Origin: a virus
Reading direction: 5' to 3' (one strand)
Length of the DNA stretch: 21,800 nucleotides
Virus record (IMG/VR): IMGVR_UViG_3300031669_000263
Location: 1 to 21,800 of that record
Shown here: positions 1-19,300 of the stretch, one piece after another
Numbering within the stretch: the first letter of the stretch is position 1
Layout of the letters: each line of letters begins with the position of its first letter
Notes under the pieces: generated by a model
What the model was told of the DNA's origin: nothing
What the model saw: only the letters and a program-made list of their open reading frames with translations
Database searches by the model: none
Translations under genes and position numbers: made by a program

Positions 1-1683
1 GTCGACCACAGCCCCGCCACCGTAGATGGTGACAGCACCCTTCTCCGCTATGATGTTGGCGCTGGACGTGCCCAGGGCCTTCATGTGGAGACCATTGTTG
101 GTGAGGATGTCGAAGTTCCCCGCCACGCCGAGCTTGATCCCACCCTGGAAAAATGCCTCAAGAGAGTTTTCCGCGATCGGCCCCCCGATGTTCGCCTTCA
201 ACTGCCCTTTCTTGTTGAAAGTGTAGAACGTGTCCTTGGTCCCGTCCAAAGGCGACAAACGAAACAGCGTTGCGGCATGTTCGTCCAGGTTGACGGATTT
301 CTCCTTGTTATTCGGGTCACTCGGAAGCGGGATCGGGTCTAGGCGCGGTGCCGGAGAGGAACCATCAAAGATGACCGCCTTGACGGGAACGCCGTACTTT
401 TGCCTCCCCTGAATACTATAAGGGTCATTACCGATAACACTGCCCAGAACCCACTCGATGTAGGGGGAATTGGAAGGAGCTTTCTGGATCCCGGCAGGGT
501 CATTATCGGGCAACCGCTCGGCATCGAACATATCCGTCTGTTCGGTTACGGGCAGTCTCCCATCCGCTGTGTGCGTGACCTCGATGCGGTACTCGGTCAG
601 CGTCCGGGCTCCCGGATCCAAAGCCGCGTTTCCGCTGGTTTGAGACGAAACCCTGAAAACGGGTTTGCCCCCATAAAGGGCTGTGGGTTGGTACTTCGTA
701 TCGACTACGAAGCCCGAGGAATCTAGGAACCCTCCCTGTTTCAGGAAGGTGTAGGGGTCCATGTTTTGGTCGACGACGATCCGGGGCCGACTGGGAGTAG
801 GTGCGGGTTGTCCCGATTTTATCTCCTGCGGGGTTTTACGGAAAATCCCAGCGGGAGTCAGGAAGCCGCTCGGAGCTGTGGGGTCGTCCAGAAGTTCGTC
901 TTCCGTGACCGGGTCATTTCCGTATAGCTGCGTTTTGGAGTCCCAGACTTTGCCGTCTGAGACCATGTACGGGGCCAGCAGGAGTGCATCCCGCTGAACC
1001 ATGCCGTGATAGGACCGGACGCCCGCGAGAGCGTCGAACCGCTGGAGGGCCCTCGTGACCGCCGCCTGGTCCTGGTCCCGAAGCCGGAACTCGTTGCCCC
1101 GGCGGTTGGCGAGAGTAACCCCCTCGTCGAGTACGAGATCCGAGCCTTGAGCGGAGGAGGCAACGATGTTGCCGGGTTGGATGTGCCGGAGCTTGTGCCG
1201 GATGACGTCGAAGACACCCTCGTACTTTGACTTGTCTTTGGGGGACTCGATGTCGTGCTCGTCCTTCTCGAATTCGGACGTTGTGACCCAATCACGCCCA
1301 GGGAAAACACCAGGGATCATCCAGGCGAGGACGACGGGTGAGCGGTCTTCCTTCCGACTGGATTCTTGATTCATCCAGCCGATGACGCAGTAGTCCCCGA
1401 TCATCGGGAGCGCAGCAAAGAAATGGCGGGCCCCCGCTCCAGGGAAAGTGAGGGGGACGGGCGTACGGATGAACTGTCCGGGTGTCCCCGAGATGGTCTT
1501 GAGGGTGACGAAAAACTCTTCGTAATCGAGACTGACGACACGGGCGATGGCGAGACTGCCCCCCACGTCGGGGCGCATCTTATCCTTGGTAGCCTTGGCT
1601 TTTTCCGAAGAAGCGAGCAGTGCCCCGTACTGGACGGACTCCAAGGAGACGATGGGCCGACGCCCTGTATTAGTCTTAGCCAT
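1..1683 (-). CDS. Baseplate spike / gp5-like OB-fold tail protein, 3'-partial
   Basis: The frame is open from an ATG at 1683 to the left edge, so 561 residues are visible and the stop lies outside the window. The start shares one base with the stop of the hub gene (TGATG) and has a strong Shine-Dalgarno (GGGGAGGT, 8 bases upstream). Residues about 38-130 look like the OB-fold of gp5/VgrG-type spikes: a beta-rich stretch ending in VVLAWMIPGVFPGRDW. Residues 155-245 are a well-ordered segment containing LANRRGNEFRLRDQDQA. From about 488 the chain becomes short beta repeats rich in G, N and I (for example GNFDILTNNGLHMKA), as expected at the start of a trimeric beta-helix needle. Its position directly after a gp27-like hub supports a tail-tip spike acting at the cell envelope. 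The middle region (250-480) is not recognised. Family placement is inference from the beta-rich pattern and gene order. Confidence 0.6.
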   Translation of the reverse strand, partial: MAKTNTGRRPIVSLESVQYGALLASSEKAKATKDKMRPDVGGSLAIARVVSLDYEEFFVTLKTISGTPGQFIRTPVPLTFPGAGARHFFAALPMIGDYCVIGWMNQESSRKEDRSPVVLAWMIPGVFPGRDWVTTSEFEKDEHDIESPKDKSKYEGVFDVIRHKLRHIQPGNIVASSAQGSDLVLDEGVTLANRRGNEFRLRDQDQAAVTRALQRFDALAGVRSYHGMVQRDALLLAPYMVSDGKVWDSKTQLYGNDPVTEDELLDDPTAPSGFLTPAGIFRKTPQEIKSGQPAPTPSRPRIVVDQNMDPYTFLKQGGFLDSSGFVVDTKYQPTALYGGKPVFRVSSQTSGNAALDPGARTLTEYRIEVTHTADGRLPVTEQTDMFDAERLPDNDPAGIQKAPSNSPYIEWVLGSVIGNDPYSIQGRQKYGVPVKAVIFDGSSPAPRLDPIPLPSDPNNKEKSVNLDEHAATLFRLSPLDGTKDTFYTFNKKGQLKANIGGPIAENSLEAFFQGGIKLGVAGNFDILTNNGLHMKALGTSSANIIAEKGAVTIYGGGAVVD

Positions 1684-4600
1684 CAGCCGTTACCTCCCCC
1701 GGTAGGGTTTTTGATCAGGGCCTTGGCCTGCTCGAATTTGAACGACGCCTCACTAGCAGCCCTCTTGGCATCTTCGGTGATGTTCTCCAGAGCGGCGGCA
1801 GTCTGACCCAAACCGAGGAAGGACTGGAGGAAATTCGACCCCCTGTTGTCCAGCACCGTCCCTCGCAAAGCCTCCTGCGATTCGCGCCATGAATCAACCT
1901 TCTCGGCGGTGACCTGACCGAGCCATTGGGTCATCGGATCAGGGCTTTCCTGAGACGCCTGGGAAACCGTACTCGGGTCGAGGATCTGGACGAACCCAGC
2001 CTGCCCGAAAGCCTCCAGTTGGATACTGGCTTCAGCGGCCTTGCAGGAACAGACATCCCCGAGAGGCGCTTGGGTGAGATCCGCCAAGGAGTAGGCGGCA
2101 TTCACCAAGGGCACTTTCATCAGTGCGTCGCTCTCTTTGGTGGGGACGAAGTTCAAGAGGCTGAATTCGAGCATGTCGGGGTTTCCAGTGGCCTTTGCCA
2201 GGCCCATGTTCTGGAGATCCCTGTTCGTGATGTTGCGCTCCTTCAACTCCCGCTGTGCCTGCTTTTCGAGCCCCGTGATGGCTTCCTGACGGGTGGTGCT
2301 CGTCCTCGGTTGGAGCTTGACCACCCCGTTTTGAGTAGTCTCTTCGATGTACTCGATGCGCGACTCGCCATCGACGAACACCTTGATGACGTTCTCGACG
2401 AGTTTCCGGGACAGCATCGAAGAGGGGTCTTGCCGGTGGATCACATCCCAAGCCCCTGATGGATCGATGTCGATCCCACGCCCGTATCGGTACGAGCCGA
2501 AAACGCAGTAACCCTTCTCATCCGAGATGGGAAACACGGGACTCTCGAACACGAGATCGTACCTGAACTCGCTTTTCGTCTTCGTCTTGTCGGCGGACAA
2601 AGACTGAGCCCCCAGCTTGGACGCAAAAGCCAAATCGAATGCGACAACGGCTTTCTCTTGGTCGACCGGCCGGGTGACCGACTCTTGGAGGCTGGCAATC
2701 CAACTCCTCTTAGCCGAAGATACAGCTCTGACCATCCAGCTCCCGAGTTCCGCACCCGCGCCCGACATGAGATCCACGGACGAAGGGAAAACCGTCTGAA
2801 CGGCTTCGCTGTCATCCGACGTGGCCCCGCCATTACCCCCGTAATAGATAGACATCGGGGCTTTCACATCGATCCGAATCTTGCGGATGGTGATGTCTGT
2901 GGGGAACGGAGGCACCGTGATAGACGGGATCGACTCGTTCACCAAGGCGGCTTTCATGGTCGTGACGACCGTTTTTCGTGCCTCGGTCAAATACCCTGCC
3001 TTGGTTTCCCACGCCCTCTTGAACACCCCCTCGATAGTATCGCTGGGCTCGATCCTCCCGTTTTTCCCTATGCTGGCCAGGTTGAAACCGGCCCGGAGAG
3101 CAGCATCCTGGGACACCTTGACCTTGGGAACCTCACCCTTCTTGTTGTTTGTCAGAGGACGCTTCAGACCCGCCTCATGTCGGGCAAACATGATCTCCTT
3201 GACCGAACTGGTGGGGATAGTCTCGCCTCCGGGTTTGTTGAACGTGTTTACGCGAATACCCCAAGTTACAGGCTGGCTCTCGGCCAGTTCCGCTTCTGGA
3301 CGCTTCCCGTTCGGGAAAGTCGCAGTGGGCGTTTTCACGTAACCTGTGGTGGTAGCCACCTGGTCGAGCACGGGGTCGGAGAGGCTTATCGTTTTGGTCT
3401 CCGCCGACTGCCGCATGAATTTCTGGCCCTGCTGCTCCTTGTCCGGGTGGGACGCCGAATAGTAGCGATAGTAGCCGGGCTGCTGACCGTTCGAGAAAAC
3501 GGCCTTCTTCTCGCTCAACAGGTCGAGGAGATTAGCGGTCGAAGTCAGATCCGTGAAGCTGCCAAAAGCACCATCATTGGATTTGGCCTTGAAGGCCGCA
3601 CCTGTTCGGTTGATCAGGTTGATCAGATAGGTGAGACCCGTATTCTTGGCGTTGGTTTCCCCTTGGCCTGTTACGAGCTTGTCTATCTCCGCCTTCAATT
3701 GTTTTCGCTTGGCAAACAACCCCTCCTGCGCTTTTTGGGCTGATTTACGCTTGGCTTTCTCTTCTGTTGGAGTGGCCGCCGTACCCTCGGCTTGCTTCTC
3801 GGCTTTACTCTTATCCCTACCGGCGGGTTTTCCGTTCAGTAAGGCGAAGAGGGCTTCCTGTTGGGGGCCGGGCTTATAGAGTGGGATTTTCTGTTCGACC
3901 TTTGCTATCTGGGCATCCAAGACTCGAAGCTCGGCCTCTAGGACGGAGACCCGTTCTCCCCGCTCCCGCAGATCCTTCATGTAATCCCGACCGGCCTCGA
4001 CGGCATCGACCCGGGTCGGCCCATCACCCACCGCTTTTTTCGACTTAGGAGAATTCTCGCCCTGCACGCTGAACAGGACCGACTGGGACGAGCTACCAGT
4101 CGACGAACTGGCTACAGAGGACTCCATGAGGTAGTCGCCCGTTGTGGGGTCTTTCTTGAGTTGGTTCAACTGGACCGCTTGATCCAAGAGGTTCTGGATG
4201 ACTTGTGGAGACCCGAGATCCTCGATGTCAGTCCCGATCAGCCAAAACAGAGGATTCAAGTGCGTCGGATCAAGAGCCATCACCACATTCGGGAAACCCG
4301 ACAATCTCGGTCTGCCGTCTTCCCCAATGACCTCCAGGGGGCGTTCGGGGAGGTTGGGATTGCTGAGTTCGATCGCGTCGATCCCGCCAATGTTCGGGTC
4401 CGGTCTCCCAGGGGCGTAGAACTTAGCCCTCTTGGCGACAAGCTGGAGGTTGGTCTGGCACTGACCACCTACCGAGAACGAATGGGCGAAACTCGGGCAG
4501 TAGTAGTAGCAGTCGAGATAGGGAATGAATACGGGGTATCCCGGACGGATTTCGGGACGTAAAGGAATCGTGACCGTGGCCGAATTGACCTGGGCATTCA

Positions 4601-7001
4601 AGATGTCCAGACGGTTGACCCCGGCGAAGAAAAGGGACTTGGGGTCGTTGTAGTAGGCGGACTCCAAGGTGGCCTGACGCCACCCGAATTGCGCCACGAG
4701 CCGATAGTCGATGTACCTGCCCTCGACGCCCCACTCGTTTTCCAACCCGGTGCCGACCCAGTTCCGGAAATGCTGACCCTTCGCGATGATGTACGTCGCT
4801 TGGGGTTCTTTCTCCGAGAAGTTGATCGTGATGATGTCAATGTCCTCGATCCGGTAAACCCTAGATGCGCTGGTATCGAGGTTGTACATGGGGGGCTTGA
4901 ACACGAAGTCCCCGTCCACGTCCTGGTAGAACTCGAATCCGATGATCTCCATGCACTTCGTGGCCACGTCCAGTTTCGAGACATAGGTGGACTCGAACGT
5001 CTCCACCTGGCCCAGCTTGCCCAGGTCCATGGGCCAAGGCTCATTCTCGGCTATGTTGATCTCAAGGTTTGAAGCCTTCCCCTGCTCCAGGAGTTTTTGC
5101 TCTTGGGTCGAATCGGGAGCGGGGGCTCCCTGTTGGGCAAGGATGACCGCTTCCAGGGTCGCCAGGCTATTGAGCCAGAGCGCCCAACTTTTCTCGAAAG
5201 GCTCGTTCTCCTGTTTGGGGTTTCGCATGGCCAAGGAGTGAGCATCCTTGAGCCTCCGCATCAGATCGGTCGTAGGCAATCTGGACAGAAACGCGGCCTG
5301 TGCATTACTGAGCAATCTGCCCGTTGCACCGTGGAGACGTAGCTGGTTCATCTTACCCTTGAACCGGTTTTCCCAGTAATTGAGGGTAAGGGAGAAAAGG
5401 CTCTCTCCGTTGAAAGCCAGGGCGTCCTGGTTGCCCGCTTGCCTCAAGGCCCAACCGACACCCGCTGCGGCTCCGCCGATGTCCGAGTAAAGCTCCCACA
5501 TGACTTGGTACGGGTGTTTCCCGGTGAAGTTGCTCCCGACAAGGGACATCTTGAGCTTCGAGTTGGTGGGTCGAGCACCCAAGAACGAGGCGTTGTCCGA
5601 AATCTGCTGGAATCCCCAGAAGTGCAGAAGCGAGTTGCACGAAACGGAGATCGTGTTCACGCCGGAGGCGTAATTGAACGTCACCGAAGTCGTGACGCCG
5701 TGGAAAACATGGTAGTAGGGGTAGGCGATCACCTCGTCGATCCCCGTGTCACCCAGGCCCATGCTATCGAGCAGGGAGGGGCCGAGTTTCGGCTGCCGGG
5801 CACGCTCGGGGGGATCTGTAGATGTGGCCTCGGCGGGCGGCCCGGGAGCCGTCGGCTGGACAACCTCCGCCATGGTCTGAGGGGGGTTTACGTTGTGCTG
5901 ATTCCACCGCCGGACCCCATCAAAGTTCGAGGGGGCAGGCATCCCCGACAGGGTCTTAGTCAGCTCGGGTGGTAGTTTGGAATCCCCGCCCGTGAGCGTC
6001 TGAACGGTTTTCCCGTTCTCATCTTTGACATCCCACCAAGTGTAGGACACCGAGCGCCCAGGGTGTCTCCCCCCTTCTCCACCATTCCGGTCGTAATGGG
6101 GCTCCCTGGACCACCGAGCAGACACGGTAAAGTCACTATGGTTTTCACTCGGGGCGTTGGTATTCGGCTTTGCTGCGAGGTAGGCACCCACGCCCCCCTT
6201 TTCCATGTACCCGGCGTCCCTGAGTGTCCGTAGCGCCGCCCAAGTCACGGTGCGGTCGACTTGCCGCCGGTTGCCGTCCGTACCGGTGTAGTAGGCTTTC
6301 AGGTCGACAGCGTTTCCCGCGTAGTGGGCGCTCCCTTCGACATGGATTCCGTCACCTTCTTTGGCAAAAGCATCCCGGAAGACGAGCTGGACATCCCCTC
6401 CCCCGTAATATGGGAGCTGGCCTTCTGAGGCCAGTGCTCCTAGATACTGCTGGAAGGTCTCCATGTTCTGACCCAGCGAGGTCAGATTCGCCCGTTGCTC
6501 TTGAGTGAGATCCGCTTCGTTTTCGCCCCTACCCAGGAAACTACTGACCGGGAATGCGGGCGTTCCGTCCGAACTCAGCGGGAGATCCTTGTTCGATTGG
6601 GCAGGGCCCACATCCGATTCTTTCGTTGCCGCCACTACCTCGGCTTCCACCGTCGGTTTCGACAGGGGCTCGAACATCCCCTCGACCGGGAAATACCCCC
6701 GCATGTAGACATGGATTTCGAGCCCAGGGCGCAAGATGAACTTGGCGTCGCGGGCAAAGCTGTCTGTGTGGTGTACAGGGATCGAGAGCGTGAAAGTGGC
6801 GGACGCCGACTGTGGGTCTATCCCTGCATCGACCGAAACTTCGGTGAGGAACTGCTGGAGATCGATCCGACGATGGCACTTCGGACAACCGGGAAGCGAA
6901 GTGTCTCCGTTCAGGTAAACCAGCGCATCTGGTGTGTGCTGAACGAGTTTCTTCCCGTCGATCTTCCAAGTGCCGACGTAGGGGGTTTGCGTCAAACTCA
7001 T
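1683..7001 (-). CDS. Giant tail/baseplate hub protein with embedded M15-type peptidase motif
   Basis: 1772 residues, several times longer than T4 gp27 or P2 gpD. Residues 1-115 are beta-rich and include a CPKC pair (C39, C42) that could hold zinc or form a disulfide. Residues about 165-340 contain the M15 metallopeptidase signature SxHxxGxAxD (S224, H226, G229, A231, D233) and a later EPHYD (E300, H302), matching the family's zinc ligands and last histidine. Residues about 425-870 resemble the hub core of gp27/late-control-D proteins, ending in the typical RPGYPVFIPYLDCYYYC...SFAHSFSVGGQ...NLQLVAKR pattern (819-858). Residues 1008-1040 and 1070-1112 are charged and probably coiled coil. The rest (1120-1772) is unrecognised and carries CSC at 1651-1653. 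It starts at ATG 7001, overlapping the preceding stop by 4 bases. Likely role: central hub of the tail tip that also cleaves peptidoglycan peptides on entry. The hub call is fairly firm; peptidase activity is inferred from motifs. Confidence 0.75.
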   Translation of the reverse strand: MSLTQTPYVGTWKIDGKKLVQHTPDALVYLNGDTSLPGCPKCHRRIDLQQFLTEVSVDAGIDPQSASATFTLSIPVHHTDSFARDAKFILRPGLEIHVYMRGYFPVEGMFEPLSKPTVEAEVVAATKESDVGPAQSNKDLPLSSDGTPAFPVSSFLGRGENEADLTQEQRANLTSLGQNMETFQQYLGALASEGQLPYYGGGDVQLVFRDAFAKEGDGIHVEGSAHYAGNAVDLKAYYTGTDGNRRQVDRTVTWAALRTLRDAGYMEKGGVGAYLAAKPNTNAPSENHSDFTVSARWSREPHYDRNGGEGGRHPGRSVSYTWWDVKDENGKTVQTLTGGDSKLPPELTKTLSGMPAPSNFDGVRRWNQHNVNPPQTMAEVVQPTAPGPPAEATSTDPPERARQPKLGPSLLDSMGLGDTGIDEVIAYPYYHVFHGVTTSVTFNYASGVNTISVSCNSLLHFWGFQQISDNASFLGARPTNSKLKMSLVGSNFTGKHPYQVMWELYSDIGGAAAGVGWALRQAGNQDALAFNGESLFSLTLNYWENRFKGKMNQLRLHGATGRLLSNAQAAFLSRLPTTDLMRRLKDAHSLAMRNPKQENEPFEKSWALWLNSLATLEAVILAQQGAPAPDSTQEQKLLEQGKASNLEINIAENEPWPMDLGKLGQVETFESTYVSKLDVATKCMEIIGFEFYQDVDGDFVFKPPMYNLDTSASRVYRIEDIDIITINFSEKEPQATYIIAKGQHFRNWVGTGLENEWGVEGRYIDYRLVAQFGWRQATLESAYYNDPKSLFFAGVNRLDILNAQVNSATVTIPLRPEIRPGYPVFIPYLDCYYYCPSFAHSFSVGGQCQTNLQLVAKRAKFYAPGRPDPNIGGIDAIELSNPNLPERPLEVIGEDGRPRLSGFPNVVMALDPTHLNPLFWLIGTDIEDLGSPQVIQNLLDQAVQLNQLKKDPTTGDYLMESSVASSSTGSSSQSVLFSVQGENSPKSKKAVGDGPTRVDAVEAGRDYMKDLRERGERVSVLEAELRVLDAQIAKVEQKIPLYKPGPQQEALFALLNGKPAGRDKSKAEKQAEGTAATPTEEKAKRKSAQKAQEGLFAKRKQLKAEIDKLVTGQGETNAKNTGLTYLINLINRTGAAFKAKSNDGAFGSFTDLTSTANLLDLLSEKKAVFSNGQQPGYYRYYSASHPDKEQQGQKFMRQSAETKTISLSDPVLDQVATTTGYVKTPTATFPNGKRPEAELAESQPVTWGIRVNTFNKPGGETIPTSSVKEIMFARHEAGLKRPLTNNKKGEVPKVKVSQDAALRAGFNLASIGKNGRIEPSDTIEGVFKRAWETKAGYLTEARKTVVTTMKAALVNESIPSITVPPFPTDITIRKIRIDVKAPMSIYYGGNGGATSDDSEAVQTVFPSSVDLMSGAGAELGSWMVRAVSSAKRSWIASLQESVTRPVDQEKAVVAFDLAFASKLGAQSLSADKTKTKSEFRYDLVFESPVFPISDEKGYCVFGSYRYGRGIDIDPSGAWDVIHRQDPSSMLSRKLVENVIKVFVDGESRIEYIEETTQNGVVKLQPRTSTTRQEAITGLEKQAQRELKERNITNRDLQNMGLAKATGNPDMLEFSLLNFVPTKESDALMKVPLVNAAYSLADLTQAPLGDVCSCKAAEASIQLEAFGQAGFVQILDPSTVSQASQESPDPMTQWLGQVTAEKVDSWRESQEALRGTVLDNRGSNFLQSFLGLGQTAAALENITEDAKRAASEASFKFEQAKALIKNPTGGGNG

Positions 7002-8452
7002 GGAAGGCCGACCCCACTCTTGGACAGGGTGAACGGGAACTTCAGGCCGAAGCTATTCACGGGAGCCTGTTGGGCTTGTGCTGGGGCCAAAGCCGCCGCT
7101 GGCTGAAAACCTCCCGTATTGACGCTCTGGGACGTAGGACGAGTTCGATCCGGCGAGGGGTGTGCCCCCATCGCGGGGTTCGAGCGCCCCCCCGTGAACT
7201 GCGAGACAAACACGTCCACGGAATCTTGCGACCCGATGGCGATGGTTCCGGGTTTGCCGGATCCGGAACCCCGGGACAGCCGAGGATCACCGGGATTTGG
7301 GTTCGGGGCACGCATGGGCTGGACAACCGTGACGTTCTGACCCGTGTCCAGCATGGCGGACACGGTGAAATTAAGCTCGAAAGTCCAGCCTCCCAATTGG
7401 TTCGTGTCGTCTACCGTGAAACTCATCGACTGCATGTGGCCGTAGTAGACCCACTTGTCGTACCGGATGGAGAGCGCCCCAACGTGATGGTGAGCGTTGG
7501 ATCGGCCCACCGTGTCGTGGATGTAGCCGTTGTTTTTGTAGAAAAGGAGCACCGACATGAGATTCTGGAACGCCATGGAATCCCGTCGGCTGGCGAACTG
7601 CACGCCTTTGCCTCCCGCGATAAAAGCTCCGATACGGGCACTGATCATCAGCTTGGGTTGCTCCTCGCCCCAAGCCTGGAAGATGTATCCGTGCCTCGAT
7701 CTATCCTGGAATTGCTGGATCTTCGAGTAGGTGATTTGAAGGCTCTGGGGGTTAATCAGGAGGATGAGAGGAGGCGTCCCGAACACCGCAGACAGTTGCA
7801 TGGCGATGTCCACCGCCACGTTGAGGTCGACGATGGCGGGTTCGCCCATGCGCCCGGTCGCGCCCTGGCCTGTCGGGGAGCGTTTGGGAGTACCGTCTGC
7901 TGGGCCCCTGTTCTGGAGGCCCGTGGAATTCCGGGCCATGACCTCCTGAACGGTGCCTCCGAACCCGAGTTGAGTGTAGGGGGCCTGAGAGATCAGATCC
8001 CGTGAGTAGCTGTAGCTCTGCCCGGAAGCGGCGGCGGCGGCCTCGAATACGCCGACTCGTTTTGGACGACCACGCCCATAAGGCTCGATGTTCCCAAAAA
8101 CCAGAGGGGGCTCGACCTGGATGGTGAAGGGTGAGAGGTTCCGGAGAATCTCAGAGGAACTCGAAACAGGTAAGGCTTCCGCCTGCTCGTATTCGACTCC
8201 GAAATCAGGACCCGTCTTGAGCCCCTTGAAAGCCAGCGGAGGTACGACCTCGATCCCGCTACCACGATCAGGAGTCTTCCGTGCGCTCTGTGGAGAGATC
8301 GCATCAGCGACCCCCCAATCCTGAAGGTCGGTCGGGTTAATCCGTTTTGGGGATGAGCTGGCATCCGTTGTAGACAACGCAGATGACGCCCGGGTCAGGT
8401 TGTTCCGGCGGAACGTGGCATAGTCGTAACCGATCCTGCTATCAATAGCCAT
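6998..8452 (-). CDS. Tail/baseplate structural protein, paralogue A
   Basis: 484 residues. The core at about 229-368 (LLINPQSLQITYSKIQQFQ...FQAWGEEQPKL, then RRDSMAFQNLMSVLLFYKNNG, YIHDT and GGWTFELNFTV) aligns with the core of the next upstream gene product in the same order and spacing, so the two are paralogues. The N-terminal 200 residues and the tail from 370 are low-complexity, rich in G, S, P, Q and A, and look like flexible extensions. The start is an ATG abutting the upstream stop (TAAATG) with a good AGGGAG Shine-Dalgarno 5 bases away. It sits between the tape measure and the hub, where tube-initiator and baseplate proteins usually lie. I infer a role at the tube-hub junction; no enzymatic motif is visible. 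Confidence 0.6.
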   Translation of the reverse strand: MAIDSRIGYDYATFRRNNLTRASSALSTTDASSSPKRINPTDLQDWGVADAISPQSARKTPDRGSGIEVVPPLAFKGLKTGPDFGVEYEQAEALPVSSSSEILRNLSPFTIQVEPPLVFGNIEPYGRGRPKRVGVFEAAAAASGQSYSYSRDLISQAPYTQLGFGGTVQEVMARNSTGLQNRGPADGTPKRSPTGQGATGRMGEPAIVDLNVAVDIAMQLSAVFGTPPLILLINPQSLQITYSKIQQFQDRSRHGYIFQAWGEEQPKLMISARIGAFIAGGKGVQFASRRDSMAFQNLMSVLLFYKNNGYIHDTVGRSNAHHHVGALSIRYDKWVYYGHMQSMSFTVDDTNQLGGWTFELNFTVSAMLDTGQNVTVVQPMRAPNPNPGDPRLSRGSGSGKPGTIAIGSQDSVDVFVSQFTGGRSNPAMGAHPSPDRTRPTSQSVNTGGFQPAAALAPAQAQQAPVNSFGLKFPFTLSKSGVGLP

Positions 8453-9262
8453 TTACGCTCCCTGGAAACCCTTGGAACCCGTCGGGAGGCTCTGTGCCCC
8501 GGATCCTGTGGGTTTTGTCAGCGCCCCACCAACACCGAGGGCTTTCACATCGGACGCGAAGTCGAGCACTTGTTCAAGGGGGCCCGGCGTCTGAGCTTGT
8601 GCCGATTGCTGTGGTGGGTACTGCGTTCCGCCGGTTGAGGTGTACGGCATAGAACGGAACCGGAGAATCTCGCTTTGGACGGTGAAGCTCGTCGTAAGCT
8701 CGAACTGGAAACCTTTGTCAGCGGACTCCATGACCTGGAAGTTGCTGAACCAGCCGAGGTAAATCCCTCCATCGAACAGGATCTTGATGATCCCCTGAAA
8801 CACGATCTGGCCGGTCGTGTCGTAGACCGACCCGTTGTTGTGGAACAGGGCCAGGAAATCGAGGTACTTGTCGTAGGCGATCGTCTCTCGCCGGGTGCCA
8901 AGGGTATTCAGCGCACCGTTTCCCGAGTCGCCCGTGATGTTCGAGAGACCCGCGTAGAGGCGCTTGAAGCCCCCCGTAGCCTGCGTGAAGTCGATGGTAC
9001 GGGCACCCTCACCCCAATGCTGTTCGACGTACCCGCCCTTCGTCTGGATACGCTCGATGGATTTCTCGTACTGGATCGACATCGTGTGCGGGTTGACATG
9101 GAGGACCATGCGGAGATCGGGCGGGAGGATGCTCGTCTCCTGGTCGGGAGCTAACACATCGAAAATGACGGGGCGAGCCCCGAGCCCATTTGTCCCATCG
9201 TCCGGGGACATGAAGGCGCTCCGGAAGACCGGGGCGTTCTTGGCTGGGCTCCCGTACCTCAT
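8453..9262 (-). CDS. Tail/baseplate structural protein, paralogue B
   Basis: 269 residues. The core at about 52-196 (LHVNPHTMSIQYEKSIERIQ, GGYVEQHWGEG, RRETIAYDKYLDFLALFHNNG, VYDTTG, KGFQFELTTSFTV) matches the core of paralogue A. The short N-terminus and a G/P/S/Q-rich C-terminus are the only other parts. The INP...GGYV.QHWGE pattern is, as I remember it, common in phage proteins encoded next to the tape measure; I do not give a family name. The ATG at 9260-9262 overlaps the tape-measure stop by 4 bases (ATGA). The Shine-Dalgarno is poor, so translation probably depends on ribosomes finishing the tape-measure gene. It probably forms a ring at the distal end of the tail tube, but that is inference from position. 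Confidence 0.6.
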   Translation of the reverse strand: MRYGSPAKNAPVFRSAFMSPDDGTNGLGARPVIFDVLAPDQETSILPPDLRMVLHVNPHTMSIQYEKSIERIQTKGGYVEQHWGEGARTIDFTQATGGFKRLYAGLSNITGDSGNGALNTLGTRRETIAYDKYLDFLALFHNNGSVYDTTGQIVFQGIIKILFDGGIYLGWFSNFQVMESADKGFQFELTTSFTVQSEILRFRSMPYTSTGGTQYPPQQSAQAQTPGPLEQVLDFASDVKALGVGGALTKPTGSGAQSLPTGSKGFQGA

Positions 9263-12200
9263 ACGCCGCTACCGAGCACCCCAGCCCTTTGAGCCGTAGC
9301 AATCGCCTTCACGATTCCGGGGGCGTCATTGTAGAGGTGGAACACGTTGGTTGTCCCACCACCGGCCGAGTCGCTTCGGCGGCTGGCGAGAGGGCCGCCA
9401 GGCTTAAGCCCGATAAGGGTATCCGCCTCCGAGATGCGCCGGGCGTCTCCGTCTTGCATGACGAAGTCTTGCAATTCGGGGAGGCCCATCGTTCTCCGCA
9501 AAGCATCTTCAACACTGCCTTCACCGCCCTGCGCGGGTTTTGCCAGATAAGGAAGAAGCTCCTCGGGGAACCCCTGGCCCTCCAGGAAAGCGAAATAGAG
9601 TCTCTCGGCCTGTGCGGCAGCATCGCTCACACCCGCTTCGGCCAGAATCGCCTTGAACAGGTCGACGTTCTCTAACGTCCGGCCCTTGAGCAGGGCCTCC
9701 AGCACGGCCTTTTCGAGATCCTCACGTAGTTTGGGCCGCGCTTTCTCTCTAAGCTCCTGCTCCTTCCGAAGCCGCTTTGCCTCATTTTCATCCATGGCGT
9801 CGATAATTTCATTCGCAGGAACACTGGCCTGGGCACGAGACAGGAGATCCTTTTTCCGGTCCGCCGAAACACCCATCCCAGGCATCCCCCAATACTCCGA
9901 CTTCAGCTCGGGTCTGAAAGTCTTGCCCGCAAGGGTAGCCTCTGCATATTGCGGGGCCAATTTTTCCAACTCCTCCAAAGCGGCCTTGAGTTTTCCGGCT
10001 TCCGCTTGCGGCATGTCCATCCCTAGATGCCGTTGCTCCTCGTGGAGCCGCTCTACGAAAGCCTGGGCCAGATACTTAGCCGCTTCCTTTTGCTGCCCTG
10101 CGGGCAATTGCTTCAACTTCTCTTTTTGCTCCGCCCCCAACCCGGCATCGGCCAGAGCCCCTGCAGCCATGCCTTTTCCTGTCTTATTCGTCCCCCAGAT
10201 TTTTTCGCCCAGCGAGGCCGAGAACCCCTCACTCAAGACTTTCTTTTGAGCCGCATCGTACCTTTTGACCTGTTTCTGGGATTCCGCCATCACGCGAGAT
10301 TGCTCCGCCATCTGAGCTTTGATCTCAGCACTTTTTTCCGGGGATGTGGCACCATGAAGCTGACCCTTAAGTCGTGCAAGCTCCTCACGGGCCCCGGCAA
10401 AATCCTCCTGGCTCTTGGAAATACCATCGGCAATCAGATCGAGGGCCTTCTGGCGTTCCTCTGCCCCGGACTCACTGAGCATGAAGTTGAAAATCGACTG
10501 GGTGACCCCATGAATTTTCTCTAGTATGGCCTCTATCCCCTGTTTCAAGACCATGGTCATCTCAGTCGTGTTCGCGACCTGTTGTTGAGCGAGGGCGATG
10601 TCCTGGGAGATCGTTTCTTCCGTCCCGTCTGAATAAGCCGAGGCGAGGGTGCTCTTCAAATCTTCGACATCCGTGGCATCAACCTCTTTCCCGATCTGGT
10701 AGTTCTGGCCTTTCAAGACGGCCCGGTAGACTTTACCTTGATCGACGATCACGCCGTAGGTCTTCGCCATCAGGTCCATTTCCTCTTGGGAAACGTGCCC
10801 CTTCATTTTTGCCGTCTCAGCCATCCGCTGCTTGATGTTGGCGACGGCTCCGAGCTGCCATCCTTGGAAAGTCGCCAGGTTCTTGAGTTCCTCCATACTC
10901 AAGCCCGTCGTCGTCACCAATTGCTTGAGCAACACATCGGTAATGTCCCCACTCTTCCAGATGTCGTAGAGGGTTTTATTACCCATCCCCTGCTCTTCCA
11001 AGATCCCTTGGATCGGCAATAGGGCGGCTTCGAGCTTGGCGACCCCGGTCACCCCAGTAGCACCCGTTACGACTCCACCCAGCCCTCCCCGAGCACCGAC
11101 CAGCAAAGTCCCCAGTGAATCGAACTTGTTGAGGAGACCAGGCATGTTGACCTTCGTCAAATCCGCCAAGAAGGCCGCCTGCTGCCGGGCAGTGAGTTTC
11201 CCGTAAGTGGACGCCAACTTATCTGGATCGAGACTCACGTTGAAACGATCGAAGATGGAACTGAGCCGGTTGTACCCGGCTTCATCATTTTCCTTGAGCC
11301 CGGAGAGCATCCGGTTGATGTCTTCGGCGGTACGTCTTGCCGCACCCGTTTCGATTTTCCTGTAGCGTGCGACCCCTTTACCCCCCTCCCCAGCCATGAG
11401 CACTTTCTTCATCACATCAGTAGGGACATCCATGATGCCCTTGTTGAGTTCGGTGACCATCTGGGCACCGGCCTTGGGCCCCAGAACCTTGCTCATGCGG
11501 GCGAGGAGCCCCGCCGTCTCACTCAGACGGACGTTGTACATGCTCATGTCCGCCGTAGCTTGTGTCATCAGGGAAAAGAACCGCTTGATGCCGAAACCCG
11601 ACTCCATGGCTGCCCGGTGAATCCCGCTGAGGCTATCCCGGATGGAGTTGAAGTTCTCACCCAGGTCCTCCATCCAGCTCCCGATTTGCTCGGTCATCTG
11701 GCCTGTCTCGGTGTTGAACAACTTGGCGTAGGTCAGAGTCAGCGCCGTGGCGTCCTTGAGACGCTCCTGTTGCGTCGCTGCATCCTGGATCCCGGCCGTG
11801 ATCCTCGCGAACGTCTGACCCGCAGCGGCATATGCCCCGATGATCTGCAAGGAATCCTTGGCTGTGAGTCCCCACGTTTGATTGAAGGATTCCCCGGTCA
11901 GGGAAAACTTGGTAAACGTCTCTCGGATCAGATCCAGGTTCTTCTGCATACTCCCGTACTGATCGGTCAATTCCCCCACAGCCACACCGGAAGAGAGAAG
12001 CTCCTTGTTGAACTCCTTGGTTTGGGCGTCCGCATCAATGATGAGTTTGACGACCGCTGCAAGCGCCCCGACGATCGCACCGAGACCCATGATAGCGGGG
12101 CCGAGCTTCCCAATAAGGGCCCCGAGCCCCCCTTCCGAAGTGGCTCCTTTCATGGCCGCCTTCGTACCGAGCGTCTTGAGCCTCTCGCCAAAGGACTCCG

Positions 12201-12687
12201 CCATTTGGCTGAAGTCACCGCTCATGGCATCGTTGACGGCCTTGGCGAACCCCTCCCCCGCGCTATCTATGTTCTCCGAGAAGCTCTTAGCCTCACGGCG
12301 GCCCAGTTCATCCGCGATTTTCTGGGTGTAGGCCATCTCCTTAGCCAGACGGCCTCTTAGGGCTCTCTCCTCAAGCGTAGCCCGTTTGAGTTGTCCCTTT
12401 AACTCCCGACGCTCGGACCTGGTCAGGGATTGATCATTAAGGCGTCTCCGGGCTTCATCGCCTCTGATTTTGAGGGTCTCCACCAAAGTGGCGTATCTCA
12501 GAGTCTCCTGCCCGAAAGCCGCAGCGGCCTTGACGGAAAAACCTTTCTGGAGTGCGTCAGCGGTCGCACTACGGATGCTCTCATGGAGAGTTTTACCGAT
12601 GACATTAGAGATGTTTTGAATCCTGGTGGGGTCTAACTCCATCCCGACCCGGGCCATAATTTCCATAGTCGCTCTTGTACTGGCCAT
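9259..12687 (-). CDS. Tail tape measure protein
   Basis: 1142 residues, mostly helical, rich in Ala, Lys, Glu and Leu, with long coil-like stretches (about 65-130 and 770-830) and a hydrophobic segment at 187-218 (LGALIGKLGPAIMGLGAIVG...). This combination of great length, heptad-like coil and one or more hydrophobic stretches is typical of tape measure proteins, which set tail length and pass into the host envelope. Using the usual approximation of 0.15 nm per residue, the tail would be about 170 nm; this is an estimate. ATG at 12687 follows the previous stop after two bases (TGATCATG), with AAAGGGGA about 10 bases upstream. The position after two chaperone-like genes and before baseplate genes is the standard tail order. 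No lytic domain motif was found in it. Confidence 0.85.
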   Translation of the reverse strand: MASTRATMEIMARVGMELDPTRIQNISNVIGKTLHESIRSATADALQKGFSVKAAAAFGQETLRYATLVETLKIRGDEARRRLNDQSLTRSERRELKGQLKRATLEERALRGRLAKEMAYTQKIADELGRREAKSFSENIDSAGEGFAKAVNDAMSGDFSQMAESFGERLKTLGTKAAMKGATSEGGLGALIGKLGPAIMGLGAIVGALAAVVKLIIDADAQTKEFNKELLSSGVAVGELTDQYGSMQKNLDLIRETFTKFSLTGESFNQTWGLTAKDSLQIIGAYAAAGQTFARITAGIQDAATQQERLKDATALTLTYAKLFNTETGQMTEQIGSWMEDLGENFNSIRDSLSGIHRAAMESGFGIKRFFSLMTQATADMSMYNVRLSETAGLLARMSKVLGPKAGAQMVTELNKGIMDVPTDVMKKVLMAGEGGKGVARYRKIETGAARRTAEDINRMLSGLKENDEAGYNRLSSIFDRFNVSLDPDKLASTYGKLTARQQAAFLADLTKVNMPGLLNKFDSLGTLLVGARGGLGGVVTGATGVTGVAKLEAALLPIQGILEEQGMGNKTLYDIWKSGDITDVLLKQLVTTTGLSMEELKNLATFQGWQLGAVANIKQRMAETAKMKGHVSQEEMDLMAKTYGVIVDQGKVYRAVLKGQNYQIGKEVDATDVEDLKSTLASAYSDGTEETISQDIALAQQQVANTTEMTMVLKQGIEAILEKIHGVTQSIFNFMLSESGAEERQKALDLIADGISKSQEDFAGAREELARLKGQLHGATSPEKSAEIKAQMAEQSRVMAESQKQVKRYDAAQKKVLSEGFSASLGEKIWGTNKTGKGMAAGALADAGLGAEQKEKLKQLPAGQQKEAAKYLAQAFVERLHEEQRHLGMDMPQAEAGKLKAALEELEKLAPQYAEATLAGKTFRPELKSEYWGMPGMGVSADRKKDLLSRAQASVPANEIIDAMDENEAKRLRKEQELREKARPKLREDLEKAVLEALLKGRTLENVDLFKAILAEAGVSDAAAQAERLYFAFLEGQGFPEELLPYLAKPAQGGEGSVEDALRRTMGLPELQDFVMQDGDARRISEADTLIGLKPGGPLASRRSDSAGGGTTNVFHLYNDAPGIVKAIATAQRAGVLGSGV

Positions 12688-16377: not shown

Positions 16378-18906
16378 TTATCCCTTCAGGGCCTCGGAAA
16401 TCTCACCCCAGACCTCCCGCCTCAGGGCCTCGTCAAAGACCCGGGCATCCGCCAGATAGCCCGACCAGTCCCCTTCGACCTTTCGATCCGGGGTCCGGAA
16501 CAGAGCCGTCAGGGACCTGCCGTAGGCGGACGCACCCGACACTGCCTTCCAAAGGTCGTCCGCCCCCTGAAGGAAGTCGGCCATCCTCTTGAGGTGAAGC
16601 CCGTAAATGTCGGCCCCGCCGTCCACCTGGGCGTTGACCACGATCAGACCGACCAGAGCCGTCCGGAGGAGCCGTCCGAGGTTCCCGTCATCGGGCATCC
16701 CCCCGTCCGCTTCGAGAGATGCCAGCATCGCCAAGAGCATGTCGGTCGGGGCCGAGTCGTTGAGGGTCAGCGAGGTCACGGCGGGGTTGAACACCCCCAT
16801 GCCGATCCCCTCATCCGCGACGAGGTTGAAGCTGTCGGGCTCGTAGTCCACGTCGTCCACATAGGCCGACGATGCCGTCGGGAAGCCGCCTCCCGTCAGG
16901 GACGTGGTTTGACTGGTCTGCACGTAGAAGGAGTGATTCGCTATCGGGGCCGTATCGCACAGGCTCATGGTGTAGACGCCCGGAGAGGCGTAAGCGGAGC
17001 CGCCGAGACTGAAGCTGGAGAGCGGAACGACTCCGGACATGATCTTCCCGCTTCCGAAGTACGCCTGCTGCTGCAAGCCCTCGGGAGTCCCGACCGGGAC
17101 GACCTGCTGCTTAGGGGTAACACCTTCCTGGTCGCCAACCCGCTCGATGACCGAGCACAGGCTCACCGCCCTGGACGCCAGGCCGTAGCCCATGGAGATC
17201 GTCTCCATCTCCTTCTCGGTCTTCTCTCGCACCGGGCTCCCAGCCTGGGACACGTCGTAGACGGAGTCGAGGTCTTCGAGCTTCCTGCCTGCCGACAGGA
17301 GCGCCACGAGGCCCTCGGGGACCGGGCGGATACCGTCAACCACGATGGGGAGAACTTCCGTACCAAAGCCCAACGTGATGAGCTTGGGCAAACCTATGCC
17401 GGGGTCGTTGACCAGGACTGGGATGCCTCCCCAGACCGTTCCGACGTCCACGTCATCCGGTCGAGCAACCGTCGCCTTCACCCCCACTTGTCGGGGGTCC
17501 TTGATCTGGTTCAGAAGGGTCAGGGCCGCAGTCGCCGTGTCCTCGTTCTCCCCCGCGAGCCTCGAAACGCCCTTCGTCCGTCGGGCGAGGGCCGTCAGGA
17601 ACTTCGACTTGCTGGCCATCCCGATGCCCAGGATGTGAAGCCGGGTTCCGACCGAAGCCATCTGCTCGATGATCTGGGCCGTCTCCCAGACCTCACCGTC
17701 CGTCAAGAGGAAGATGTCCCCGCCGGGACCCCCAAGCACCTTGAGGGCAGCTCCGAGCGTCCCCAGAAGCTCCGTCCCACCGTTCACCTGGATCTTCTCG
17801 ACGAACTTCTTGGCCTGCTTTCGGTTCTCGTCCGTGGCCTTCACCGTCTTCTTGTGGAACGCCTTGTGGTCCGACCCGAAGTGGATGATCCCGAACTCGT
17901 CATCCGGCCCGAGCGTCGACAGGCAGGCGAGGACCGACTTCTTCGCCCGCTCAATCGGATGGCCGCCCATGGACCCGGATCGGTCGAGGACAAAACACAC
18001 CTTCCTGGGGGTGTTCTCCGCCTTCGGGACCATCTCCGACGGGATAACCGCCGTCCAGCGAGGTGCGCCCTTTGGGAGCGACGTATCCGGGGCCTCTTCC
18101 TCCCCCTCGGTCAGGGACTTGTCCGCGAACACCGCGAAGATGGGCTTCTTCGTCTTCACGTCGAGGACCAGATCCCGGTTCGGGACACCATCCCCAGCCG
18201 CCAAGGTAACCACGGCGGCATCGGTGCCGGACGGGCTGACGCTGATCCGGTGCGAGGGAGACGCCACGGAGTCGAGGACGCCGCCGGTCTCCACCTGGAT
18301 GTTGAACGAGACCTCGTGGAGGCCCTCGGCGCTGGACTTCCACTCGGGGAGGATGAGGTCCCCGAAAACCGAGCTGGGGAGTTCCTGCTTGCCCCCTTCG
18401 GGGGTGGCGTAGCTCTTGGCCTGGGAATGGTAGCCCGGCGGGATGGTGAAGGGGTAGCGGAAGCGGTAACCCTTGTCGTTCACCTCGACCCCGACGACGA
18501 TCTCCATGAGGACCGTGATCTCCTCGCCAGGACGCACCTGACCCACGTTCAGGCTCACCAAGCCGTCGGCAGAGGTCTCGGCCAGGACCGAGAGATGGCC
18601 GCCCTGGATGCCCTCCTCGTAGCTCTCACGGGCCTTCTCGCGAGGCTTCATCTCGGACTTCGCCTCGAAGTCCTCCCCCTTGACCGTGAATCGCCGGAGG
18701 GTTCCGTTGGCCGGGAGCATCGAGACGTAGATGGCCTCGAAGGGCTCACCGTCCTCTTCGGTCTTGAACTTGTGGGTCAGCGTCAGCATGGCCCCGACCG
18801 GGTAGACTTGGCCACTCAGGTCGAGCCGTTGCATGACCAAGATGGCCGGATGGCCGGTTGTTTGGTTGATCAGGGTGTTCACTACGGGGGTCATGTCAGT
18901 TTCCAT
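16378..18906 (-). CDS. VIT + von Willebrand factor A domain protein
   Basis: 842 residues from ATG 18906, chosen because AGAGGAG lies 7 bases upstream and the chain then begins like a VIT domain; longer starts add only an unrelated Arg/Ser-rich extension. Residues about 20-150 are the VIT domain (seen also in inter-alpha-trypsin-inhibitor heavy chains), with the typical FPxxAxVxxF-like beta pattern modified. Residues 300-475 are a VWA domain with an intact metal-ion adhesion site: DRSGS at 308-312, T378 in GGTEL, and D403 in LLTDGE. Residues about 560-610 (GYGLASRAVSLCSVIERVG, then VVPVGTPEGL) form a conserved-looking post-VWA module. The C-terminal region (700-842) is helical and unassigned. 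It has no signal peptide or membrane anchor, so it is probably cytoplasmic, or secreted another way. It overlaps the MerR gene by 11 bases, implying co-expression. Its role in a phage is unknown; protein binding is likely. Confidence 0.85.
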   Translation of the reverse strand: METDMTPVVNTLINQTTGHPAILVMQRLDLSGQVYPVGAMLTLTHKFKTEEDGEPFEAIYVSMLPANGTLRRFTVKGEDFEAKSEMKPREKARESYEEGIQGGHLSVLAETSADGLVSLNVGQVRPGEEITVLMEIVVGVEVNDKGYRFRYPFTIPPGYHSQAKSYATPEGGKQELPSSVFGDLILPEWKSSAEGLHEVSFNIQVETGGVLDSVASPSHRISVSPSGTDAAVVTLAAGDGVPNRDLVLDVKTKKPIFAVFADKSLTEGEEEAPDTSLPKGAPRWTAVIPSEMVPKAENTPRKVCFVLDRSGSMGGHPIERAKKSVLACLSTLGPDDEFGIIHFGSDHKAFHKKTVKATDENRKQAKKFVEKIQVNGGTELLGTLGAALKVLGGPGGDIFLLTDGEVWETAQIIEQMASVGTRLHILGIGMASKSKFLTALARRTKGVSRLAGENEDTATAALTLLNQIKDPRQVGVKATVARPDDVDVGTVWGGIPVLVNDPGIGLPKLITLGFGTEVLPIVVDGIRPVPEGLVALLSAGRKLEDLDSVYDVSQAGSPVREKTEKEMETISMGYGLASRAVSLCSVIERVGDQEGVTPKQQVVPVGTPEGLQQQAYFGSGKIMSGVVPLSSFSLGGSAYASPGVYTMSLCDTAPIANHSFYVQTSQTTSLTGGGFPTASSAYVDDVDYEPDSFNLVADEGIGMGVFNPAVTSLTLNDSAPTDMLLAMLASLEADGGMPDDGNLGRLLRTALVGLIVVNAQVDGGADIYGLHLKRMADFLQGADDLWKAVSGASAYGRSLTALFRTPDRKVEGDWSGYLADARVFDEALRREVWGEISEALKG

Positions 18907-19300
18907 TGTCTGTCTCCTCTTCTGGGCCGGGGTCAGCGAATTGCTCGATCTTCCGGAGTAGCTCCTGCCTGCGGTCGTGGGACATAGGGACTCGGAGAGA
19001 CACCATGACATCCGGGTGGATACGGTATGCCTCCCACATCTCGTCGGGATACCATTGCGCCCCGGATACCGTGGTAGTCTCGCGGGCATCCGAGGTCATT
19101 TGCCGGATCTGATCCAGCGAGTACCCCAACTTCTTGAGATCCTTGATCTGCTCCAACGCCGTCAGGTGGCTGTCGTCATAGTGGGCTTTCTTCCCACTGC
19201 CGATGGGTGAGGGCAAAAGCCCCTCCGCCATGTAGTAGCGAACCGTCCGGGCCGACAATCCAGCCGCCTCTGCCAGTTCGGCTATCGTGTATTCGACCAT
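18896..19300 (-). CDS. MerR-family transcriptional regulator
   Basis: 134 residues from ATG 19300. Residues 3-24 (EYTIAELAEAAGLSARTVRYYMAEGLLP) match the MerR helix-turn-helix, followed by the wing (PIGSGKKAHYDDSHLTALEQ) and LKKLGYSLDQIRQM. The effector part after about residue 70 is short (about 65 residues), contains no Cys pair for metal sensing, and is charged. A GTG at 19318 would add six residues; the ATG gives the usual family N-terminus. Neither start has a clear Shine-Dalgarno. It ends 11 bases inside the VIT/VWA gene, so it probably regulates its own operon. MerR proteins distort promoters with long spacers; no such promoter with a matching inverted repeat was found here. The small-molecule or protein signal is unknown. 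Confidence 0.85.
   Translation of the reverse strand: MVEYTIAELAEAAGLSARTVRYYMAEGLLPSPIGSGKKAHYDDSHLTALEQIKDLKKLGYSLDQIRQMTSDARETTTVSGAQWYPDEMWEAYRIHPDVMVSLRVPMSHDRRQELLRKIEQFADPGPEEETDNGN

Follow-up and report, generated by a model that had tools for sequence, protein, structure and literature searches.

Enzymes that cut the bacterial cell wall are already known as parts of phage tails, where they are usually found as domains of the spike, as in T4, as domains of the tape measure protein or as C-terminal tails. The lysin domains of the Tal proteins are mostly located at the C-terminus. The zinc DD-peptidase of Streptomyces albus G is a free, secreted enzyme with a wall-binding domain of its own. 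Lysin domains in tape measure proteins are also mostly C-terminal (PMC10194240), and endopeptidases are common among the virion lysins of phages that infect Gram-positive hosts (PMC6116005; PMC10194240). In the literature surveyed, reports of virion lysins of the endopeptidase type are confined almost entirely to phages infecting Gram-positive bacteria (PMC6116005), which makes the host of the lineage described below a testable question.

Here we describe a predicted peptidase domain inserted into a tail hub protein that is encoded in a 21.8-kb metagenomic record from a very large bacterial virus (the whole stretch of DNA analysed, hereafter the window). Our main conclusion, to which we assign a probability of roughly 0.78, is that the insert belongs, as a zinc metallopeptidase, to the M15/Hedgehog-DD-peptidase (LAS) superfamily, being located in a surface loop of hub domain I and serving as a built-in, interchangeable virion lysin. 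No description of such a hub insert was found in the literature searched, most subscription journals being outside its coverage.

Identification of the Tail Hub

The hub, its parts outside the insert and the adjacent genes are located as follows.

1683..7001, minus strand: tail hub protein of 1772 aa, identified from an open frame, a model match to solved hubs and 71 related loci
6693..6932, minus strand: opening portion of hub domain I, residues 24-103, placed by the VIA match to Mu gp44; its last strand in the model, 95-101, precedes the loop
4407..5720, minus strand: remainder of the hub core, residues 428-865, with strands 429-445 and 448-457 after the insert
2541..3443, minus strand: site 2, residues 1187-1487, minimal in the window hub (about 300 aa)
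6998..8452, minus strand: tail gene upstream of the hub, 484 aa, corresponding in gene order to Tunturi_5 gp255 or gp256
9259..12687, minus strand: likely tape measure protein, 1142 aa, from position and length
1..1683, minus strand: next gene downstream of the hub, at least 561 aa, incomplete at the window end

The 485-kb huge phage LR745208 encodes a distant homolog of the window hub; that of the jumbo phage Tunturi_5 is more distant still and is annotated as a tail protein with lysin activity. Aligning the window hub with the LR745208 homolog led to 71 IMG/VR loci of huge phages on contigs of up to 536 kb, using search patterns placed on both flanks of the insertion site (site 1), a design that misses hubs with changed flanks. 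At 90% identity, these loci and the two annotated records collapse to 55 representatives, of which two are remote.

A structure model was made of hub residues 1-880, and it is weak overall (pLDDT 63.9, pTM 0.42). Its ordered parts match 19 chains with Foldseek E-values from 4e-6 to 5e-4, nearly all of them hubs or tail-tip proteins, including the Mu-type tail proteins of Neisseria and Shewanella (MuSo2), Milano, the T5 tail tip and Mu gp44, with T4 gp27 and VgrG ranked lower. These matches bear out the hub-like character that the first-pass annotation of this DNA had attributed to the protein, and as judged from the model it is a tail hub of the gp27/gp44 type. Realignment with VIA placed Mu gp44 (1wru) over model residues 24-694. 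For residues 706-863, the counterpart is the second hub domain of such proteins as pyocin R2 and lambda J. Domain I of both Mu gp44 and T4 gp27 aligns on either side of the insert (residues about 20-694), so that the insert lies within domain I, after strand 95-101 and before strand 429-445.

A CxxC motif is located near the start of the hub (residues 39-42; 6876-6887) and a CxC motif near its end (residues 1651-1653; 2043-2051). Both are present in 41 of 41 hubs and both are missing in the other five (Fisher 7e-7), a co-occurrence that suggests a single metal or disulfide site, which would link the two ends of the protein.

The 1142-aa gene has the same position and length as Tunturi_5 gp257 and L068 2313-5600, and from the gene order it is likely to encode the tape measure protein. 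Equivalents of the 484-aa upstream gene in L039 and L052 show a match to Phage_tail_tube_init that is below the cutoff. The product of the gene downstream of the hub is 44-53% identical to its equivalents in other loci, and no solved relative, spikes included, was found for it by sequence. By eye it is spike-like, and the part within the window has no evident lysozyme, which would fit a lysin sited in the hub. Close to the tail genes, positions 16378-19089 (minus strand) encode a protein of 903 aa in which a VIT domain (PF08487) is combined with a von Willebrand A domain (PF13768), seemingly an uncommon architecture among phages.

Characterization of the Insert Domain

The insert and its motifs occupy the following positions.

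5793..6623, minus strand: exchangeable insert (site 1), residues 127-403, with no similarity to the insert of the sister hub L004
5946..6554, minus strand: M15/Hedgehog-like domain as modelled, residues 150-352
6303..6332, minus strand: SxHxxGxAxD motif (SAHYAGNAVD), residues 224-233, with the putative zinc ligands H226 and D233
6180..6197, minus strand: GGVGAY, residues 269-274, of which GxGxY is invariant; in the M15 domains at site 2 the aligned residues are GGVGFY
6090..6104, minus strand: EPHYD, residues 300-304, with the putative third ligand H302 and the invariant D304

The first-pass annotation had pointed to an M15-type peptidase motif at 5967-6524, an interval that corresponds to hub residues 160-345 and includes the WSREPHYD ending at residue 304. 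The SxHxxGxAxD signature is indeed located there, and no second copy exists in any of the six frames of the window, with an expectation of 0.0007 for a protein of such composition. The EPHYD noted about 70 residues downstream is also present, 67 residues beyond D233, but E300 is variable and the conserved motif is xHxD (H302, D304) rather than EPHYD. This motif aligns with FIHID of the site-2 M15 domains, and residues 302-304 form a strand in the model.

The domain is carried in the same loop, between RGYFPV and YPYYHVFHG, by 14 hubs, namely the window hub and 13 others from huge phages. Identity between the window domain and the other 13 ranges from 18 to 33%, and H226, G229, A231, D233, G270, G272, Y274, H302 and D304 are unchanged in all 14, D304 being the sole invariant acid apart from the ligand D233. 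In a leave-one-out profile search based on the other 13 members, the window scored 98.8 bits versus 14.7 bits for the best hub lacking the M15-like domain at site 1, and that hub has an M15-type domain at another site. Since the window by itself scores nothing in Pfam, we also considered that SxHxxGxAxD might be a chance match in a hub loop, an explanation with practically no probability left, being refuted by the low expectation, the conservation in 14 hubs, the leave-one-out score and the matching fold. A chimeric assembly was rejected because the same arrangement recurs in 14 distinct hubs, and an endolysin was rejected because the domain sits within one continuous hub frame.

The AlphaFold model of residues 150-352 has a pLDDT of 86.9 and a pTM of 0.84. 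Foldseek by itself identified nothing significant in the PDB and BFVD (best E 0.26), and the M15 and Hedgehog entries emerged only when the Foldseek candidates were realigned with VIA. The top entry is then the zinc DD-peptidase 1LBU (Z 10.7 over 121 residues, 3.1 A, 14% identity over the aligned residues), followed by Hedgehog structures at Z about 7 with LysECD7 among them, thereafter ChiX, Ply500 and LysB4, and lower down VanX and the RB49 peptidase. Solely Hedgehog and M15 entries are listed down to Z 5.7, the first unrelated entry having Z 5.2. The predicted fold is accordingly M15-like, as the first-pass annotation had anticipated.

At the sequence level, the only significant solved relatives of the family profile are the N-domains of Sonic, Indian and Desert hedgehog (best E 2e-5), with Ply500 at E 0.12. 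H226 and D233 align with H141 and D148 of Sonic hedgehog (Shh), and H220 matches Shh H135, this position being a histidine in 9 of the 14 members. The Shh calcium ligands E90, E91, D96, E127, D130 and D132 fall in a poorly aligned region and are mostly unmatched by the profile consensus. The Pfam check that had been suggested for the domain gave a divided result: the window domain alone obtained no hit, PF01085 included, but the member L056 exceeds the curated HH_signal (PF01085) cut-off with 27.9 versus 22.1 bits. L056 is also the best member for Peptidase_M15_3/M15_2 (PF08291, PF05951), at 20.1 versus the cut-off of 23.2 bits, and the window has no match there. Searches of NCBIfam and PHROGs with the window domain returned nothing useful, tblastn searches against phages gave chance-level matches only, and domain-only scans with narrow patterns recovered known hubs only from viral contigs and none from genome contigs.

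When the family profile was compared with the site-2 domains of M15_2-like type (E 4.7e-6), both halves of the ligand set aligned, as did GGVGxY. The invariant GxGxY and HxD pattern matches the site-2 domains that hit PF05951 below the cut-off, and GGxGxY followed by xHxD is what we take to be the typical pattern of Peptidase_M15_2/M15_3. The insert domain looks like Hedgehog in its first half and like Peptidase_M15_2/M15_3 in its second half.

Two narrower placements were rejected. One is an M15 peptidase of the VanY/VanX/Ply500 type (PF02557, PF13539), for which the acid at position -3 from the last His is missing; this residue is R299 in the window and variable elsewhere, and across the 14 members a conserved Glu or Asp is absent at both -3 and -6 from H302. 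The other is Hedgehog proper, as all 14 members have H-x-D and not H-x-H, and the equivalent of the Hedgehog residue E177 (on its role, see PMC8052667) is missing. Being neither VanY-like nor Hedgehog, the domain is therefore assigned no lower than to the M15/Hedgehog-DD-peptidase (LAS) superfamily, within which we treat it as a new subgroup. The earlier M15-type assignment stands as far as fold and ligand pattern are concerned, although the domain resembles Hedgehog and not VanY, and the usual M15 acid is not conserved in it; the likeness to Hedgehog and the nature of the loop as an exchange site had both been missed.

With no conserved general acid/base at the usual positions, it may be asked whether the domain has kept the M15 fold and the zinc site without being an enzyme, and instead binds peptidoglycan or stabilizes the tip, as argued for Hedgehog. 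Its relatives include Hedgehog, the site of which has been called pseudo-active (PMC6027127). We consider a non-enzymatic role unlikely, given that the ligands are invariant while the remainder of the domain diverges to the low identities given above, and that the same slot serves catalytic lysozyme-type domains in related hubs. Furthermore, D304, which is placed two residues past H302 and probably on the same face of the strand, could be the catalytic residue in place of the usual acid.

Domain Exchange Between Hubs

In other hubs, the same flanks enclose lysozyme-like or unclassified inserts or just 14-45 residues, the short loop being found in about half of the hubs. Among the 13 inserts that are not of the M15 type, SLT was identified in four (best E 2.5e-19) and Phage_lysozyme2 in four (best E 2.9e-11), in partly overlapping sets of proteins. 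The inserts of L004, L026, L031, L016, L020, L028, L034 and L065 have no family match in Pfam, and PHROGs offered no class for the L004-type and other unassigned inserts. By eye, some of the unmatched inserts resemble SleB or NlpC/P60, which may serve as a lead; those of L004, L026 and L031 share an E...NR... pattern that recalls SleB-type hydrolases and have no relevant match in Pfam or PHROGs.

Many hubs with a short loop have an expanded site 2, which extends from RYYSASHP to SPVFPVSD and comprises about 480-790 residues (479-786) compared with about 300 otherwise. Glucosaminidase (PF01832) was identified here in two hubs and a muramidase (PF11860, E 0.003) in one, while six of the aligned hubs have M15-type motifs. 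Two of these six match PF05951 with E about 5e-4, below the cut-off. Of 46 hubs that are complete at both sites, 23 are occupied at site 1 only, 12 at site 2 only, 10 at neither and one at both. Occupancy of the two sites is near-exclusive (Fisher p 1.8e-4, an optimistic value since related hubs are not independent). L027 (11547-13400, approximate) alone combines an M15 insert at site 1 with a greatly expanded site 2, and its second insert is unclassified.

The hubs with neither insert are L023, L024, L025, L036, L039, L049, L051, L052, L068 and L069, and no lysin was found by Pfam in those of their neighboring genes that were scanned. In these ten, the lysin function is consequently either dispensable in some hosts or located in an unrecognized gene elsewhere.

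The history of the site was traced on a tree of the hub core built without the inserts. The presence of a site-1 insert requires only two changes on this tree, whereas the type of insert requires at least 12 among the hubs that have one, some type labels (L016, L020) having been assigned by eye. Taken by itself, the M15 type requires nine changes, at least five of which are forced by strongly supported branches. The closest relative of the window hub is its sister L004, with 78% identity over the hub core and a support of 100. The insert is 278 residues long in L004 and 277 in the window, with no detectable similarity between the two, whereas the linkers are still recognizably alike, the flanks being 74% and 52% identical. 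The loop is an exchange site for whole domains of unrelated folds.

The exchange also bears on the substrate. M15 enzymes as a group are peptidases, and nothing more specific was found in favor of a target other than peptidoglycan, such as a protein exposed on the host surface, a peptide layer of the host or, during assembly, the hub itself. The glycan of peptidoglycan is what the lysozyme-type and glucosaminidase domains in the corresponding places of related hubs attack, and a peptidase and a glycan cutter would be interchangeable only if peptidoglycan is their shared target, which speaks against cleavage of another peptide and makes it very unlikely.

Discussion

A role of the M15/Hedgehog-like insert in cutting the cell wall is supported indirectly, by analogy, because the slot in sister phages holds lysozyme-like domains and hubs with an empty slot often have a recognized lysin at site 2. 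We envisage that contraction of the tail would drive the hub, located at the tip, to the cell wall. There, H226, D233 and H302 would hold a zinc ion that activates a water molecule, and the peptidase, presumably displayed outside domain I, would cut the stem or cross-bridge peptide of the peptidoglycan round the entry point, allowing the tube to pass through the wall. Should the hub form a trimer, like those of T4 and Mu, several copies of the domain would be arranged round the tip. Elsewhere in the lineage, the lysin would be swapped at the loop or carried at the second site further along.

A broader hypothesis is that domain I represents a dedicated socket, through which one lineage swaps unrelated lysins in a single loop between fixed linkers and keeps roughly one lysin in each hub, at either of two sites. 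In this way it would re-tune wall entry to new hosts while the rest of the tail is unchanged. We are evenly divided about this proposal. If true, a hub with a central domain that takes varied lysins in one loop would illustrate how large phages adapt wall entry by the exchange of modules, and a phage group of Hedgehog-like domains would join the small set known from bacteria.

The closest solved fold to the insert domain is that of the Streptomyces albus G enzyme (1LBU, M15), which we take to have the same H, D, H ligand set and from which the hub insert differs in that the position of the catalytic acid is not conserved. The Hedgehog N-domain and the bacterial Hedgehogs (BacHh, M15A) have the same order of elements as the insert up to SxHxxGxAxD, but Hedgehog is a secreted protein, whereas the insert is part of a phage hub. 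Likewise, the phage endolysins of the M15 type (Ply500, LysB4, LysECD7 and the RB49 peptidase) share the fold (Z 4.8-6.6) but act at lysis, whereas the window domain belongs to the tail. In the gp27-gp5 complex of T4, a hub from the same fold family is paired with a tip domain that cuts the wall, as predicted for the window hub; in T4, however, this domain is a lysozyme that cuts the glycan and is located in the spike protein gp5, whereas the window has a peptidase-type domain within the hub. The virion lysins of the phages of Gram-positive bacteria (Tal and tape measure lysins) are similar in having a muralytic domain fused to a tail protein, yet these domains are mostly C-terminal, whereas the domain of the window is inserted into hub domain I, at a single loop where unrelated folds are exchanged.
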